A stretch of 34,864 nt of DNA from Limisphaerales bacterium (GTDB lineage: Bacteria > Verrucomicrobiota > Verrucomicrobiia > Limisphaerales > JADLHS01), in the NCBI GenBank assembly GCA_020848635.1, contig JADLHS010000119.1:1-34864 (forward strand). Reading direction: 5' to 3'. How positions within the stretch are numbered: position 1 is the first letter of the stretch; each line of letters starts with the position of its first letter. The notes under the pieces are model-generated. The model did not search any database and was not told the origin of the DNA. It was given only the letters and a program-made list of their open reading frames with translations. This document shows positions 28,391 to 33,270 of this stretch, piece after piece. Both the position numbers and the translations under genes were made by a program.

Positions 28391-29602
28391 CTACTCGTTG
28401 TCCGCCCGCACCGCGTCGTTCAGTTCGTCGAGAAACTTGGGCAGCGCGGATTCCACCCGATTCCAGTTGGGAATCAGTGGCGCACCCAGCGGGTCGTCGA
28501 GAAAAGCCTTGGCAGCTGCGCGAATGCTGCGCGCGAAAGTGGCCACGGCCAACTCCTCTTCGTGGCGTCCGAAAGTCATGCCGTTGACCAGGGCGTCGGC
28601 ATTGTAGTGGCGGAGGGTGTCTTCGGCCCGGCGCACATAGGCGCTTAACAGCGTGTCGAACAGGCCCGCGTCCATGCGGATGCCCTCGGCCGCCATCACC
28701 CGGAAGATGACCTTGGCAACGTCGGTCGCCATGCGGTTCAGTCCCTTTTCCGGATCGCGGGCGGAGAGTTCCTGATGCTTGTGATCGTAGCTTTCGGCAA
28801 GCTCGCTCTGGCAAATGGCGCGGGCGGCCGAATTGCGAAACACCTCCGCCAGCATGCCGACTTCCAGCCCCCAGTCCGACGGGACCCGCACGCGACGGAT
28901 GAGGTCGGTATCCAGGCAAATTTCGCCGGAGAGCGGGTAGCGGAAGGTGTCGAGATAGACCAGCAAGGGGTGCGCGCCGAGGATGGATTCCAGCGAGCGG
29001 ATGAGTGGCGTAAACATCAGGCGCATGACCCGTCCATTAAGCTTGGTTGTGTAGCGCGCCGTGTAACCCTTGCAGAAGTCCAGGCCGAGGCTCGGATGGG
29101 CCACCGGGTAGCACAGCCGGGCCAGCAATTCGCGATTGTAGGTGAGAATATCGCAATCGTGCGCGGCCACCATGCGCGCTTGCTCGCTCGCGAGCACATA
29201 GCCGAAACAAATCCACACGTTGCGCCCCTTGCCGGTCGGGCCGGAGGAGATGTCAGCTGCCTCCAACTTCTCGAACAGGGCGCACATGCGCGGGCCGTCA
29301 TTCCAAAGGAGCCGCGGCTTCTGCGGCATCACGCGGAAGAAATGCCGGGCTTTCTGCCACTGCCGCACGCCGCGCGCGCCGTCGATGCCCACGACAATTT
29401 GCTTGAGATAAGAAACGCGTGACAATTCGCGAATGATGCCCTTGAGCGCCTTGCTGCCCACTTCGTTGATGTGGCAGGGCAGCACGAGCGCGATGGGAGT
29501 TTCCTTGGCGAATTCCTGCAGTTCCCGTTCCAGCCGCGGCAGGTCCGTCTGCCCGAGGCGGTGCAGCGTGGCGATCGCGCCGGTTTGAAAGAAGTCAGAC
29601 AT
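28391..29602 (-). CDS. GT81-like glucosyl-3-phosphoglycerate synthase
   Basis: A 403-residue GT-A glycosyltransferase resembling GpgS (GT81), which transfers glucose from an NDP-glucose to 3-phosphoglycerate for glucosylglycerate synthesis. An N-terminal ALVLPCHINEVG begins the nucleotide-binding fold. The GPTGKGRNVW segment carries Gly-Lys-Gly at 124-126. The divalent-metal DxD motif is Asp149-Cys150-Asp151 (AAHDCDILTYN). PSDWGLEVGML, near residue 240, corresponds to the family's GxE region. No signal peptide or transmembrane segment is visible. The gene starts with the ATG at 29602. It converges with truB and its promoter region contains repeat copy 1 (29671-29726). It could belong to another closely related GT2/GT81 subfamily. 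Confidence 0.72.
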   Translation of the reverse strand: MSDFFQTGAIATLHRLGQTDLPRLERELQEFAKETPIALVLPCHINEVGSKALKGIIRELSRVSYLKQIVVGIDGARGVRQWQKARHFFRVMPQKPRLLWNDGPRMCALFEKLEAADISSGPTGKGRNVWICFGYVLASEQARMVAAHDCDILTYNRELLARLCYPVAHPSLGLDFCKGYTARYTTKLNGRVMRLMFTPLIRSLESILGAHPLLVYLDTFRYPLSGEICLDTDLIRRVRVPSDWGLEVGMLAEVFRNSAARAICQSELAESYDHKHQELSARDPEKGLNRMATDVAKVIFRVMAAEGIRMDAGLFDTLLSAYVRRAEDTLRHYNADALVNGMTFGRHEEELAVATFARSIRAAAKAFLDDPLGAPLIPNWNRVESALPKFLDELNDAVRADNE

Positions 29603-29670: not shown

Positions 29671-29726
29671 GGATGGCGGCCCGACCATCTCGCTTGCCTC
29701 CAGAAGATAGCTCTCCCAGACCCTTT
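29671..29726. repeat. Interspersed repeat, copy 1
   Basis: A 56 bp element starting GGATGGCGGCCCGACCATC. It matches copy 2 (30787-30841) at 47 of 56 aligned positions by eye, including an identical first 19 bases and an identical last 12. It can form a first hairpin (GGATGG with CCATCT, closed by a G-T wobble) and a second hairpin (GAAGA with TCTCC, one mismatch). It lies 69 bp before the minus-strand GT81-like gene. Confidence 0.85.
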
Positions 29727-29804
29727 GCAAATCAGCATTAGCTTACGTGGCGGCTATCGCCCGACGCAAGCCGTCGCGCAAAAAAGCTCTCTGCGTCATT
29801 GCAA

Positions 29805-30167
29805 TTACTTTTCACGACTACGCCCCTGCAAAAAGTTGACCAGTTGCCCAATGCCGAACGCCAATAGCAATGTCAGGGTCATCGCCACTGGTTTGAATGC
29901 ATCATTCCCACTCTTGATTTCCAGCCAAGCTATGACGGCTTGAATCAACAACAGAATGTCCACGAGAATCAACGTGCTGATGGGCCAGATCCGCCACCGA
30001 AACCCCCTCAGCCCCAGCACGCCCCAAAACACTGACGCAAGGCCACCCGCGATTCCCGTAATAAGAATCGCATTGCCGAAATCGGGAGCGAGCCGGTGCG
30101 CCAGCACACCGAACCCCGCCAGCATGACTCCGTAGAGCAGCAGATCGAAATCGAGATTTGGGTTCAT
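29805..30167 (-). CDS. Small four-helix membrane protein, paralogue B
   Basis: A 120-residue membrane protein with four predicted transmembrane helices (about residues 8-26, 32-52, 60-82 and 92-113). No family is recognised. It is a clear paralogue of the upstream protein at 30164-30610: about 30 of 74 aligned residues are identical by eye, including LAG-x-G, a shared AP-x-FG and W-R-x-W. Its ATG overlaps the stop of that gene by four bases (ATGA at 30164-30167), so the two are translationally coupled. The tail is short and basic (GRSREK). The fold and function are unknown; no catalytic residues stand out. Confidence 0.78.
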   Translation of the reverse strand: MNPNLDFDLLLYGVMLAGFGVLAHRLAPDFGNAILITGIAGGLASVFWGVLGLRGFRWRIWPISTLILVDILLLIQAVIAWLEIKSGNDAFKPVAMTLTLLLAFGIGQLVNFLQGRSREK

Positions 30168-30610
30168 CGCTTGGACCGCGTGTCCCGCGATTGCGGCTCT
30201 TTCCCGCTCGAAAACGGATCGGGGTTACGGGTTGCTGCTTTTTGATAGAACTCCGCCGGGCGCTCACCATGGAGTAGATACATGAGCATGCCGATCGTCA
30301 GAACCAACATCCCCACCACCAACAGACGGACCGTGAGGCTGGCTGAATTTTCCCCTGCGGATGCCATCCAGACATTGACTGTCTGGTGCAACAACACGAA
30401 AGCCACTGCAATCATAGTGAGAACAGCCCACGCCCGCCACTTCATACCCGCCAACGCAGCGATGCCCCAAAGCTGGCACAACCCACCGACGACGAGACCG
30501 GCGATAAAGGTGACTTTGCCGAACACCGGTGCGATTTGATGGAGAACGAAACCGAGACCGGCCAACCCGCCGCCGTATGCGATCAGGATACTTGCCATCT
30601 TCTTGCTCAT
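30164..30610 (-). CDS. Small four-helix membrane protein, paralogue A
   Basis: A 148-residue membrane protein with four predicted helices at about residues 6-24, 33-53, 60-80 and 95-113, then a polar, charged tail of about 30 residues. The ATG at 30610 (MSKKMASILIAYGG) is chosen because the upstream extension to 30694 is hydrophilic and unlike a membrane N-terminus; no Shine-Dalgarno is seen. It is the first gene of a two-gene operon with paralogue B. The polar tail is the main difference from B. Its function is unknown. Together the two look like a tandem duplication that may form a heteromeric membrane complex, which is inference. Confidence 0.78.
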   Translation of the reverse strand: MSKKMASILIAYGGGLAGLGFVLHQIAPVFGKVTFIAGLVVGGLCQLWGIAALAGMKWRAWAVLTMIAVAFVLLHQTVNVWMASAGENSASLTVRLLVVGMLVLTIGMLMYLLHGERPAEFYQKAATRNPDPFSSGKEPQSRDTRSKR

Positions 30611-30749
30611 AACTGGAAGGACTCGGCTGTGGGTTGAATCAATACCCGACTTGAGAAGGGAAACGCAGTGCGCGTGTCGTCTCGCGATGCTCAAAGCGAA
30701 GCGATCAAAACCCTTCTCAGTGGGAATGTTAATTCAGGCACAACAATGT

Positions 30750-30788
30750 CCGATGTTTCATTGCATTAAATGCAATTCATTTCATCGG
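30750..30788. promoter_or_regulatory. 39 bp dyad between divergent genes
   Basis: CCGATG at 30750-30755 is repeated as CATCGG at 30783-30788. Within it, ATTGCATT (30760-30767) and AATGCAAT (30769-30776) form a second perfect inverted repeat separated by one A. It lies between the minus-strand paralogue A gene (start 30610) and the plus-strand glycosyltransferase (start 30962), and its right arm overlaps repeat copy 2. As DNA it resembles an operator; as RNA it would fold into a hairpin with a 4/6-base internal loop. Confidence 0.6.
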
Positions 30789-30841
30789 ATGGCGGCCCGA
30801 CCATCCAGTTTCCTCCAGGGGAAGGCTCCCCCAGACCCTTT
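30787..30841. repeat. Interspersed repeat, copy 2
   Basis: A 55 bp element in the same orientation as copy 1 at 29671-29726, on the other side of the membrane-protein pair. It forms hairpin 1 (GGATGG with CCATCC, perfect) and hairpin 2 (GGGGA with TCCCC, perfect). Position 3 of hairpin 2 is G-C here and A-T in copy 1, a pair-preserving change. The rest of 30611-30961 holds the dyad but no gene; a TTGACA at 30851-30856 has no matching -10. Confidence 0.85.
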
Positions 30842-30961: not shown

Positions 30962-32527
30962 GTGACGCTGGTCATCGTTCATTATCACCTTCGACCCGGC
31001 GGCATTCGGCGCATCATCGAACTCGCCACGCCGCACCTCGTGCGCAATGCTCCACGCCCCATCACGAAGGTCGTGATCGCGACTGGCGAACCTGCCGACC
31101 ACCCATGGCACGATCACTTCGCGCACCAACTCGCCGGTGTGCCCATTGCGGTGTTGGTCGAACCGTCATTCAACTACCTCTCCGAACAGCGCGGTTCACC
31201 GGAACGAATCATCACGCGAATCCGCCGCACGGTGAAAAAGTTGTTCGCCAATTCCAACACCGTAAACTGTCTTGTCTGGGCGCACAATCTGGGCGTGGGT
31301 CGCAATCTGCTCCTCACTCGCGAACTCACCGCTGCCTGCGCCGGGCGCGACATCCCACTCGTCGCGCATCATCACGATTGGTGGTTCGACAACCGCTGGG
31401 TTCGTTGGCCGGAGATGCGCCGCAGCGGCGTCCGCAGGCTGGCCGACGCCGCGCAGGCCGTGTTCCCGCCACAAAACCGCGTTCTTCATGCGGCCATCAA
31501 TCATGCCGACGCAGCCATTCTCACGCGTCACTTCGGAAAAAGTGCGCTCTGGCTGCCCAACTTCACGGAAGCCGCACCGTTGCCGTCCCTAACTCGCATT
31601 CATTCCGCCCAGCACTGGTTGCGGAGCAAGCTGGGGCACGCCGACGCGCCCGTGTGGTTGCTTCCGTGTCGCACGCTCCGGCGGAAGAACATCGCCGAGG
31701 CGTTGTTGCTCACGCGCTGGCTACGGCCCGAAGCGTGGCTGGTGGTGACCGGGGCGGCGAGTTCGGCCGACGAGTTGCCTTACTTTGACGCCTTGAAACG
31801 CACCGCGCACCAGCATCACAGACGCTTGCGCCTCGGGGTGCTGGCCGGCAAAGAATCCCGCAAACCCAGCATCCCGGAGTTGCTGGCCGCGAGTGAAGCC
31901 GTGTTGCTCACCTCGATTCAAGAAGGCTTTGGTCTGCCCTACCTGGAAGCCGCCGCCGCCCAGCGACCGCTGATCGCACGCCACCTGCCGAACATCGCAC
32001 CCGATCTCGACCGCTTTGGTTTTCGCTTCCCGCAGGCGTACGACGAAATCCTGATCGCACCCGAGTTGTTCGATTGGCCAGCCGAGCGCGCCCGACAGCA
32101 AAAGCGGTTCAACGAATGGCGGGCTACCCTGCCGGCGTTTGCCCGCAAGCGGGCATTGCCTCCGCCAGTGCTCGCCAACGCCCGCCCGCGCACCGTGCCC
32201 TTCAGTCGGTTGACACTCACCGCCCAACTGGAGGTGCTGACGCACCCAGCTAAAGAAACGTGGGGGGCCTGCGCGCCACTGAATCCATGGCTTGAAACAT
32301 GGCGCGGCCGCGCGGCGGCGGGAAAGCTGCGGGTGACCCCGTGGCCGCGCCGCGCCAAAAGCTGGTTGGACGGCGCAGCCTACGCGCGGAGGTTTTTTGC
32401 CGCGCTGACCGCGAATTCCGGTTCCCGCCCGCCAGCGTTCTCGCCGGTGAAGGTTCAATCTGATTTCATCGCCAGCAAACTGGACGCGCGAAATGTCTAT
32501 CCGCTTTTATGGAGCAAGAACGCATGA
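30962..32527 (+). CDS. GT4-like glycosyltransferase
   Basis: A 521-residue GT-B glycosyltransferase. The N-terminal LVIVHYHLRPGGIRRIIE is typical of the acceptor-side Rossmann domain of GT4 enzymes. The donor-side domain begins near WLLPCRTLRRKNIAEAL. The conserved ExxxxxxxE motif is in SIQEGFGLPYLEAAAAQRPLI. About 100 residues follow after the GT core and match nothing I know. The GTG at 30962 is the first plausible start. The stop overlaps the following HAD gene by four bases (ATGA at 32524-32527), so the two are coupled. Sugar donor and acceptor cannot be read from sequence. Confidence 0.78.
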   Translation: MTLVIVHYHLRPGGIRRIIELATPHLVRNAPRPITKVVIATGEPADHPWHDHFAHQLAGVPIAVLVEPSFNYLSEQRGSPERIITRIRRTVKKLFANSNTVNCLVWAHNLGVGRNLLLTRELTAACAGRDIPLVAHHHDWWFDNRWVRWPEMRRSGVRRLADAAQAVFPPQNRVLHAAINHADAAILTRHFGKSALWLPNFTEAAPLPSLTRIHSAQHWLRSKLGHADAPVWLLPCRTLRRKNIAEALLLTRWLRPEAWLVVTGAASSADELPYFDALKRTAHQHHRRLRLGVLAGKESRKPSIPELLAASEAVLLTSIQEGFGLPYLEAAAAQRPLIARHLPNIAPDLDRFGFRFPQAYDEILIAPELFDWPAERARQQKRFNEWRATLPAFARKRALPPPVLANARPRTVPFSRLTLTAQLEVLTHPAKETWGACAPLNPWLETWRGRAAAGKLRVTPWPRRAKSWLDGAAYARRFFAALTANSGSRPPAFSPVKVQSDFIASKLDARNVYPLLWSKNA

Positions 32528-33270
32528 AGATCCAGGTGGTCATCTTCGACATTTATTCGACGATCCTTGATGTCGGCCCGCCGCCCACCAACGCCGACGC
32601 CCTCTGGCAGCGACTCTTTGAAGCGACGCTCCAGACCCCGCCGCCCGTCAGCCGGACGGAATTCTCGGTGCGCGCCGCCCGGATCATTGCACGCCAACAC
32701 GCGGCGGCGCGCGCGCGCGGGATTCAGTGGCCTGAAATTCAGTGGCCATCGGTGGTGCTGGAGGCGATTCCCAGCCTCGCCCGCCTGGCCGCTCCCACGC
32801 TCGACGAGTTCCTCTATCGGCAAATGCAACTGGGCCGCACCTTGCGATTGGCTGATGGCGCCGAGGCATGTCTGCGGCAGCTGAATGACGACGGAATCCT
32901 GCTCGGCATCGCCTCCAACGCGCAGGCTTACACGCTCCGCGAACTCACCGCCGCGCTCCAGGCCCCCGGACTGAACCTCTCCCTGTTCGACCGCGGACTT
33001 CGTTTTTGGTCCTTTGAACACGGATTCAGCAAACCCGACCCCCATGTCTTCCGCATCCTGACCGCGCGCCTCGAAGCGCGTGGCATCCGCCCGGCCGAGA
33101 CGCTCATGGTCGGCGACCGCCGCGACAACGACATCGAGCCGGCCCGCGCACAGGGCTGGCAAACGTGGCAGGTGGGGCCGGCGGCGGATGGAAACTGGGC
33201 CGCCTTGCGCGACCGGTGGTTTCTTCCCAAGCCGGAAATCAAGTTGAAACGATCTTTCCGCCCCCTGTAA
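32524..33270 (+). CDS. HAD-superfamily hydrolase with Asp-x-Tyr motif I
   Basis: A 248-residue HAD-fold hydrolase. Motif I is IFDIYSTI, with the nucleophile Asp9 but Tyr11 where most phosphatases have a second Asp; this DxYxT form is common in haloacid-dehalogenase-type members. Motif III carries Lys170 (SKPDPHVF), and motif IV is MVGDRRDND with Asp198. A helical cap inserts after motif I. The ATG at 32524 overlaps the GT gene stop and is preceded by GGAG at 32511-32514; an alternative ATG at 32509 would add five residues. Coupling with a glycosyltransferase suggests action on its product, but the missing second Asp makes a simple sugar-phosphatase role uncertain. Confidence 0.82.

Follow-up and report, generated by a model that had tools for sequence, protein, structure and literature searches.

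Predicted nhaA-I riboswitches precede a gpgS homologue and a pair of small membrane protein genes in a Limisphaerales bacterium

Introduction

The nhaA-I motif was reportedly first described by Weinberg et al. in 2017. The family has been biochemically characterised as the Li+-I riboswitch (White et al. 2022; PMC9646797), with Li+ validated as the ligand of nhaA-I RNAs and Na+ as that of rare, terminator-bearing deltaproteobacterial variants that carry C54 rather than the common U (Na+-II). Members of the class behave as ON switches, and terminator-bearing versions were found only in Deltaproteobacteria; which of the two ions is sensed at osmotic-stress genes, Li+ or Na+, was left open by the same authors (PMC9646797). 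A further riboswitch with a similar two-stem architecture is Na+-I, the DUF1646 motif (PMC9337991).

Here, we describe a locus of a Limisphaerales bacterium (GCA_020848635.1, contig JADLHS010000119.1) within an analysed stretch of 34,864 nt, referred to as the window. It carries two adjacent minus-strand leaders that we read, with a probability of roughly three in four, as salt-induced nhaA-I riboswitches, one for a pair of membrane protein genes (family A; copy 2 of the element) and the other for gpgS (copy 1).

Two window repeats match the nhaA-I model

Both repeats matched the full 55-position model of nhaA-I (RF03057) on the minus strand in cmscan, copy 2 at 30787..30838 with 50.5 bits and copy 1 at 29671..29723 with 45.3 bits (model positions 1-55 in each case; gathering score 37 bits). 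With the whole window searched against all of Rfam, the E-values of the two copies were 2.8e-7 and 5.1e-6, which excludes a chance match, and we assign the repeats, on their sequence and fold, as predicted new members of a known riboswitch class, nhaA-I (Li+-I / Na+-II). A first-pass annotation had already recorded two same-orientation repeats identical at 47 of 56 positions, and both the positions and the identity were reproduced exactly. The two-stem fold proposed there was likewise real, but it had been drawn on the plus strand, whereas the Rfam match places the functional RNA on the minus strand. A pair thought to be lost in copy 1 is in fact a G.U wobble of the minus-strand RNA, which appeared as an A.C mismatch because the complementary strand had been folded; on the RNA strand, P1 of copy 1 has the same eight pairs as that of copy 2. 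In copy 2, P1 is formed by 30827-30834 with 30815-30822 and P2 by 30800-30806 with 30787-30793, the latter carrying the conserved CGGGCC loop.

The window RNAs share with described Li+-I / nhaA-I riboswitches the two hairpins, GGGU before P1, AGG after P1, the CGGGCC loop of P2, the full-length model match and the leader position. They differ in the base of P1, which is Y-G in the window (GGGUY...GAGG) and G-C in the known members (GGGUG...CAGG), and in their targets, since elements of the window type precede gpgS, MscS, family A and NhaD genes, whereas the known ones precede mainly nhaA. Moreover, the main text of PMC9646797 does not list the phylum of the window among those that carry the motif.

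Given that the consensus models of the two motifs have been described as similar and that DUF1646 RNAs occur in Verrucomicrobia, the elements could instead be Na+-I riboswitches misassigned as nhaA-I. Na+-I shares with the window RNAs a similar two-stem architecture, and some of its targets are osmoprotectant and antiporter genes. However, its conserved nucleotides differ at the P1 base and in the P2 loop by that group's account (PMC9337991), and Rfam searches yielded nothing but nhaA-I for the two window copies at E-values up to 5 and for the elements at 13 related loci up to an E-value of 10. We consider such a misassignment very improbable and retain nhaA-I as the class of both copies.

Covariation and genomic distribution

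The first-pass annotation had proposed looking for compensatory changes in homologues, and these were found. Across 19 elements from the order Limisphaerales and its neighbours, 97.5% of the stem cells were paired, as compared with 30-60% in slid-alignment controls, and 10 of the 15 stem pairs had changed on both sides, with 50 such cells observed versus 14.8 in shuffled controls. The core loop and the upper P2 pairs were nearly invariant among the 19 elements, and relatives kept the stems and the core loop while their flanks differed.

The source genome assembly (5.85 Mb, 706 contigs) contained three nhaA-I copies in all, the third lying on a different contig, where it precedes a putative lipoprotein gene truncated by the contig end. 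Matches were present in 13 of 57 related genomes, in 15 of 388 genomes spread across the phylum and in 30 of 297 genomes from the phylum of a Syntrophaceae genome. A pattern scan of contigs yielded real elements together with chance matches, and solely those with a pairing P1 were kept. Four Desulfobacterota loci (L114, L119, L122 and L127) carried nhaA-I elements in tandem, with two or three of them in a span of ~350 bases.

Two near-identical, same-orientation copies only 1.1 kb apart might suggest a mobile non-autonomous element or a REP-like repeat that resembles nhaA-I, an option that the first-pass annotation had raised alongside dispersed regulatory RNAs and leader elements. Yet there are just three copies in 5.85 Mb, each before a gene, they match the covariance model over its full length with covarying stems around a fixed core loop, and gene families that follow the element in one phylum are found behind it in others as well, so that copy number, gene context and covariation together rule this option out for practical purposes. 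The reading as regulatory leaders, by contrast, held up: each of the three genome copies lies upstream of a gene, and members of the same families of genes follow the element in different genera and phyla.

Genes behind the two window copies

Both repeats precede minus-strand genes, as had been noted, with gene starts at 30610 and 29602. The two copies are not the borders of a mobile unit; rather, copy 2 heads the two-gene unit and copy 1 heads the next gene, encoding a GpgS homologue. The first gene behind copy 2 (30164..30610, minus strand) is an open reading frame for a family A membrane protein of 148 aa with four long predicted helices, preceded by a leader of about 176 nt. It is followed by a second family A gene (29805..30167, minus strand; 120 aa), and the earlier suggestion that the two are paralogues was borne out by 34% identity over 116 aa (E 1e-17). 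Family A had no Pfam family above cutoff, no significant match among PDB sequences and, with a model of moderate confidence (pLDDT 72.6), nothing significant in Foldseek. A profile search of the 57 genomes recovered 25 family A genes. The nine best-scoring ones, which include the two of the window and belong to seven transcription units, all lie behind an nhaA-I element, which stands 146-211 nt ahead of the first gene of the unit; the tenth-best begins at the edge of its contig, and no element precedes the weaker homologues.

Another small membrane family, designated family B (~110 aa, three predicted helices, pLDDT 83.6), was observed behind elements with a G-C base at ten loci of the same phylum (L024-L027, L029, L030, L033, L035, L036 and L038) and at one in Desulfobacterota (L113). 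The two families had no profile similarity to each other.

The gene behind copy 1 (28391..29602, minus strand; 403 aa) starts 68 nt downstream of the aptamer and matched the glucosyl-3-phosphoglycerate synthase (GpgS) family NCBIfam NF040724 over its full length (E 4.7e-96), although the 322 bits fall below the equivalog cutoff of 700; we therefore call the predicted product a GpgS homologue, its exact reaction lying below equivalog-level proof. No match was found among PDB sequences. Fifteen genomes of the order encode a GpgS of at least 70% identity, with the element directly upstream in 3 and upstream via an intervening family A gene in 2 of these 15, meaning that gpgS genes behind an element are a minority within the order. 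Separately, many Verrucomicrobiota (loci L178-L179, L181-L183 and L185-L192) have the GpgS homologue in an open frame of ~1000 codons, which may reflect a fusion with a further domain.

Beside the riboswitch units, the window also holds a divergent pair of plus-strand genes for a GT4 glycosyltransferase (30962-32527) and a HAD hydrolase (32509-33270). Such a pair likewise neighbours gpgS and/or an nhaA-I element at L142, L145 and L154, as does GT4 alone at L143. The window GT4 has a weak match to mannosylglucosylglycerate synthase, and the pair may belong to the same solute pathway.

Genes behind the element in relatives

As with the window copies, elements of relatives lie in leader position before cation and osmotic-stress genes. 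The element is followed by family A and then GpgS at L007 and L011, by family A and then NhaD at L013 and by family A and then MscS at L018, and it directly precedes GpgS (L012, L021), MscS (L006, L020), NhaD (L010) or Na_H_antiport_3 (L015); the antiporters of PF16980/CitMHS type are those that we read, from their domain matches, as probable NhaD. Further genes behind elements of relatives encode a Na+/H+ exchanger, NhaA, trehalose-6-phosphate synthase (PF00982) and a Na/Ca exchanger. One contig (L141/L142) carries three elements within 18 kb, the first heading a unit of family A, MscS, a sucrose-phosphate synthase-like glycosyltransferase, a sucrose-phosphatase-like protein and a PfkB kinase, and the other two preceding a solute-binding protein gene and a GpgS gene with TrkH and TrkA nearby. 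Outside the phylum, the element is followed by GpgS in one Desulfobacterota genome (L111) and by trehalose-6-phosphate synthase in Elusimicrobia and Omnitrophota (L090, L091). Some downstream genes, namely those for secreted proteins and the putative lipoprotein, are not obviously osmotic.

Two side observations concern these genes. At L041, L090 and L091, a membrane/Cache-like sensor segment (sCache_3_2 in L041) precedes the trehalose-6-phosphate synthase domain, and at L016, L019 and L023 the elements lie before genes for secreted, repeat-rich proteins with no obvious tie to ion stress.

A candidate expression platform

Downstream of copy 2, we identified a candidate OFF-state hairpin (30749..30789, minus strand) with the stem UCCGAUG...CAUCGGA and an inner AUUGC...GCAAU pairing. 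This hairpin and P2 cannot fully co-form, because it overlaps the 3' arm of P2. In seven family A leaders, 98.8% of its cells were paired and two pairs had changed on both sides; for copy 2, folding of the P2 3' arm with the downstream RNA gave -21.7 kcal/mol, compared with -9.4 for P2 alone, and the alternative fold was the more stable one across these leaders. At L006 (about 1540-1590) and L020, a T run follows the alternative hairpin over the P2 3' arm, resembling an intrinsic terminator, and, unlike the terminator-bearing versions described in PMC9646797, these two lie in Verrucomicrobiota. At L112 and L095 the alternative hairpin is a long terminator hairpin, while at L012 pairing is possible between the 3' arm of P2 and the stretch immediately upstream of the gpgS start. 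Around either window copy, neither a U-tract terminator nor a sigma-70-type promoter was found, and for copy 1 the search for an OFF structure yielded no evident alternative hairpin with P2.

By analogy with characterised members, the window RNAs would bind a ligand and act as alkali-cation ON switches. Salt stress would raise the intracellular alkali cation, which would bind between the P1 base and the P2 loop and stabilise P2; the stabilised P2 would then withhold its 3' arm from the alternative downstream hairpin, and the gene would be expressed. Without ligand, the alternative hairpin would form and expression would be low. The expected outcome is that salt induces glucosylglycerate synthesis and the membrane proteins.

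Which cation might be sensed

The base of P1 fell into two types among 83 tabulated elements. The G-C type (GGGUG...CAGG) occurs with proteobacterial antiporters and with the family B small membrane proteins, and the Y-G type (GGGUY...GAGG) accompanies gpgS, MscS and family A and is also that of almost every Desulfobacterota element with a terminator. RNAs of the Y-G type were found in Verrucomicrobiota, Desulfobacterota, Elusimicrobiota and Omnitrophota. A strict split between gene classes by P1 type was considered and dropped, being broken by L041 (trehalose synthase, G-C) and L095 (nhaA, Y-G).

The closest tested Na+ sensor, Na+-II of Desulfobulbus propionicus (PMC9646797), shares with the window RNAs the fold and an alternative hairpin that uses the P2 3' arm, and the terminator-bearing Desulfobacterota relatives, the group of this published sensor, share the Y-G base of the window. 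In contrast, the window copies have no U-tract terminator, and where the tested example carries C54, most likely model position 42 as judged by construct-length arithmetic, both window copies carry U. The window RNAs thus combine Y-G with U42. Variants with C42 and a good P1 were almost all of the Y-G type. The C42 form was also seen in Elusimicrobia, Omnitrophota and Verrucomicrobia (L094, L091, L102, L103 and L108), where the genes behind it were for a sodium/hydrogen exchanger, for trehalose synthase and for GpgS.

The window copies might be ordinary Li+-I riboswitches, and the osmolyte and channel genes might belong to a response for Li+ tolerance. Those nhaA-I members with U that have been assayed are Li+-selective, responding to the ion both in vitro and in cells (PMC9646797), the window copies have this common nucleotide at the specificity position, which lies in the P2 loop region, and the same work suggested that Li+ may act through trehalose synthesis. 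However, the targets are general osmoadaptation genes and not only Li+ exporters, orthologous gpgS genes lie behind aptamers with U (L012, L021) or with C (L103, L108), and the P1 base of the window is unlike that of the proteobacterial antiporter-linked members. We judge this reading to be unlikely. As for the ligand itself, gene content and P1 type point to Na+, which we infer to be the probable physiological ligand of the predicted riboswitches; the loop base and the assayed members point to Li+, which we regard as a rather doubtful candidate, and there is a slight chance of both ions or of another ligand.

A bolder and more tentative proposal, to which we give somewhat less than even odds, is that the Y-G nhaA-I RNAs are a distinct Na+-sensing osmoadaptation subclass, set apart from G-C, antiporter-linked Li+ sensors.

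Implications

While the riboswitch class is known, its place before gpgS, MscS and family A genes in Verrucomicrobiota is new; the regulon is mostly unreported, and the question of ion choice is sharpened. The locus is most likely a small salt-stress operon turned on by the switch, including an enzyme for the protective solute glucosylglycerate. It offers two compact, adjacent natural RNAs, before gpgS and before a membrane pair, alongside relatives with a U or a C aptamer before gpgS, and therefore the choice between Li+ and Na+ is directly testable. The finding ties direct RNA ion sensing to glucosylglycerate synthesis, probable sucrose synthesis and mechanosensitive channels in Verrucomicrobiota, and it draws attention to a membrane family, the closest members of which all sit behind an nhaA-I switch. 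If the proposed Y-G subclass is real, it would control MscS, NhaD, a new small membrane family and the synthesis of glucosylglycerate, trehalose and sucrose, and the P1 base, rather than the reported loop position alone, would largely determine the ligand.
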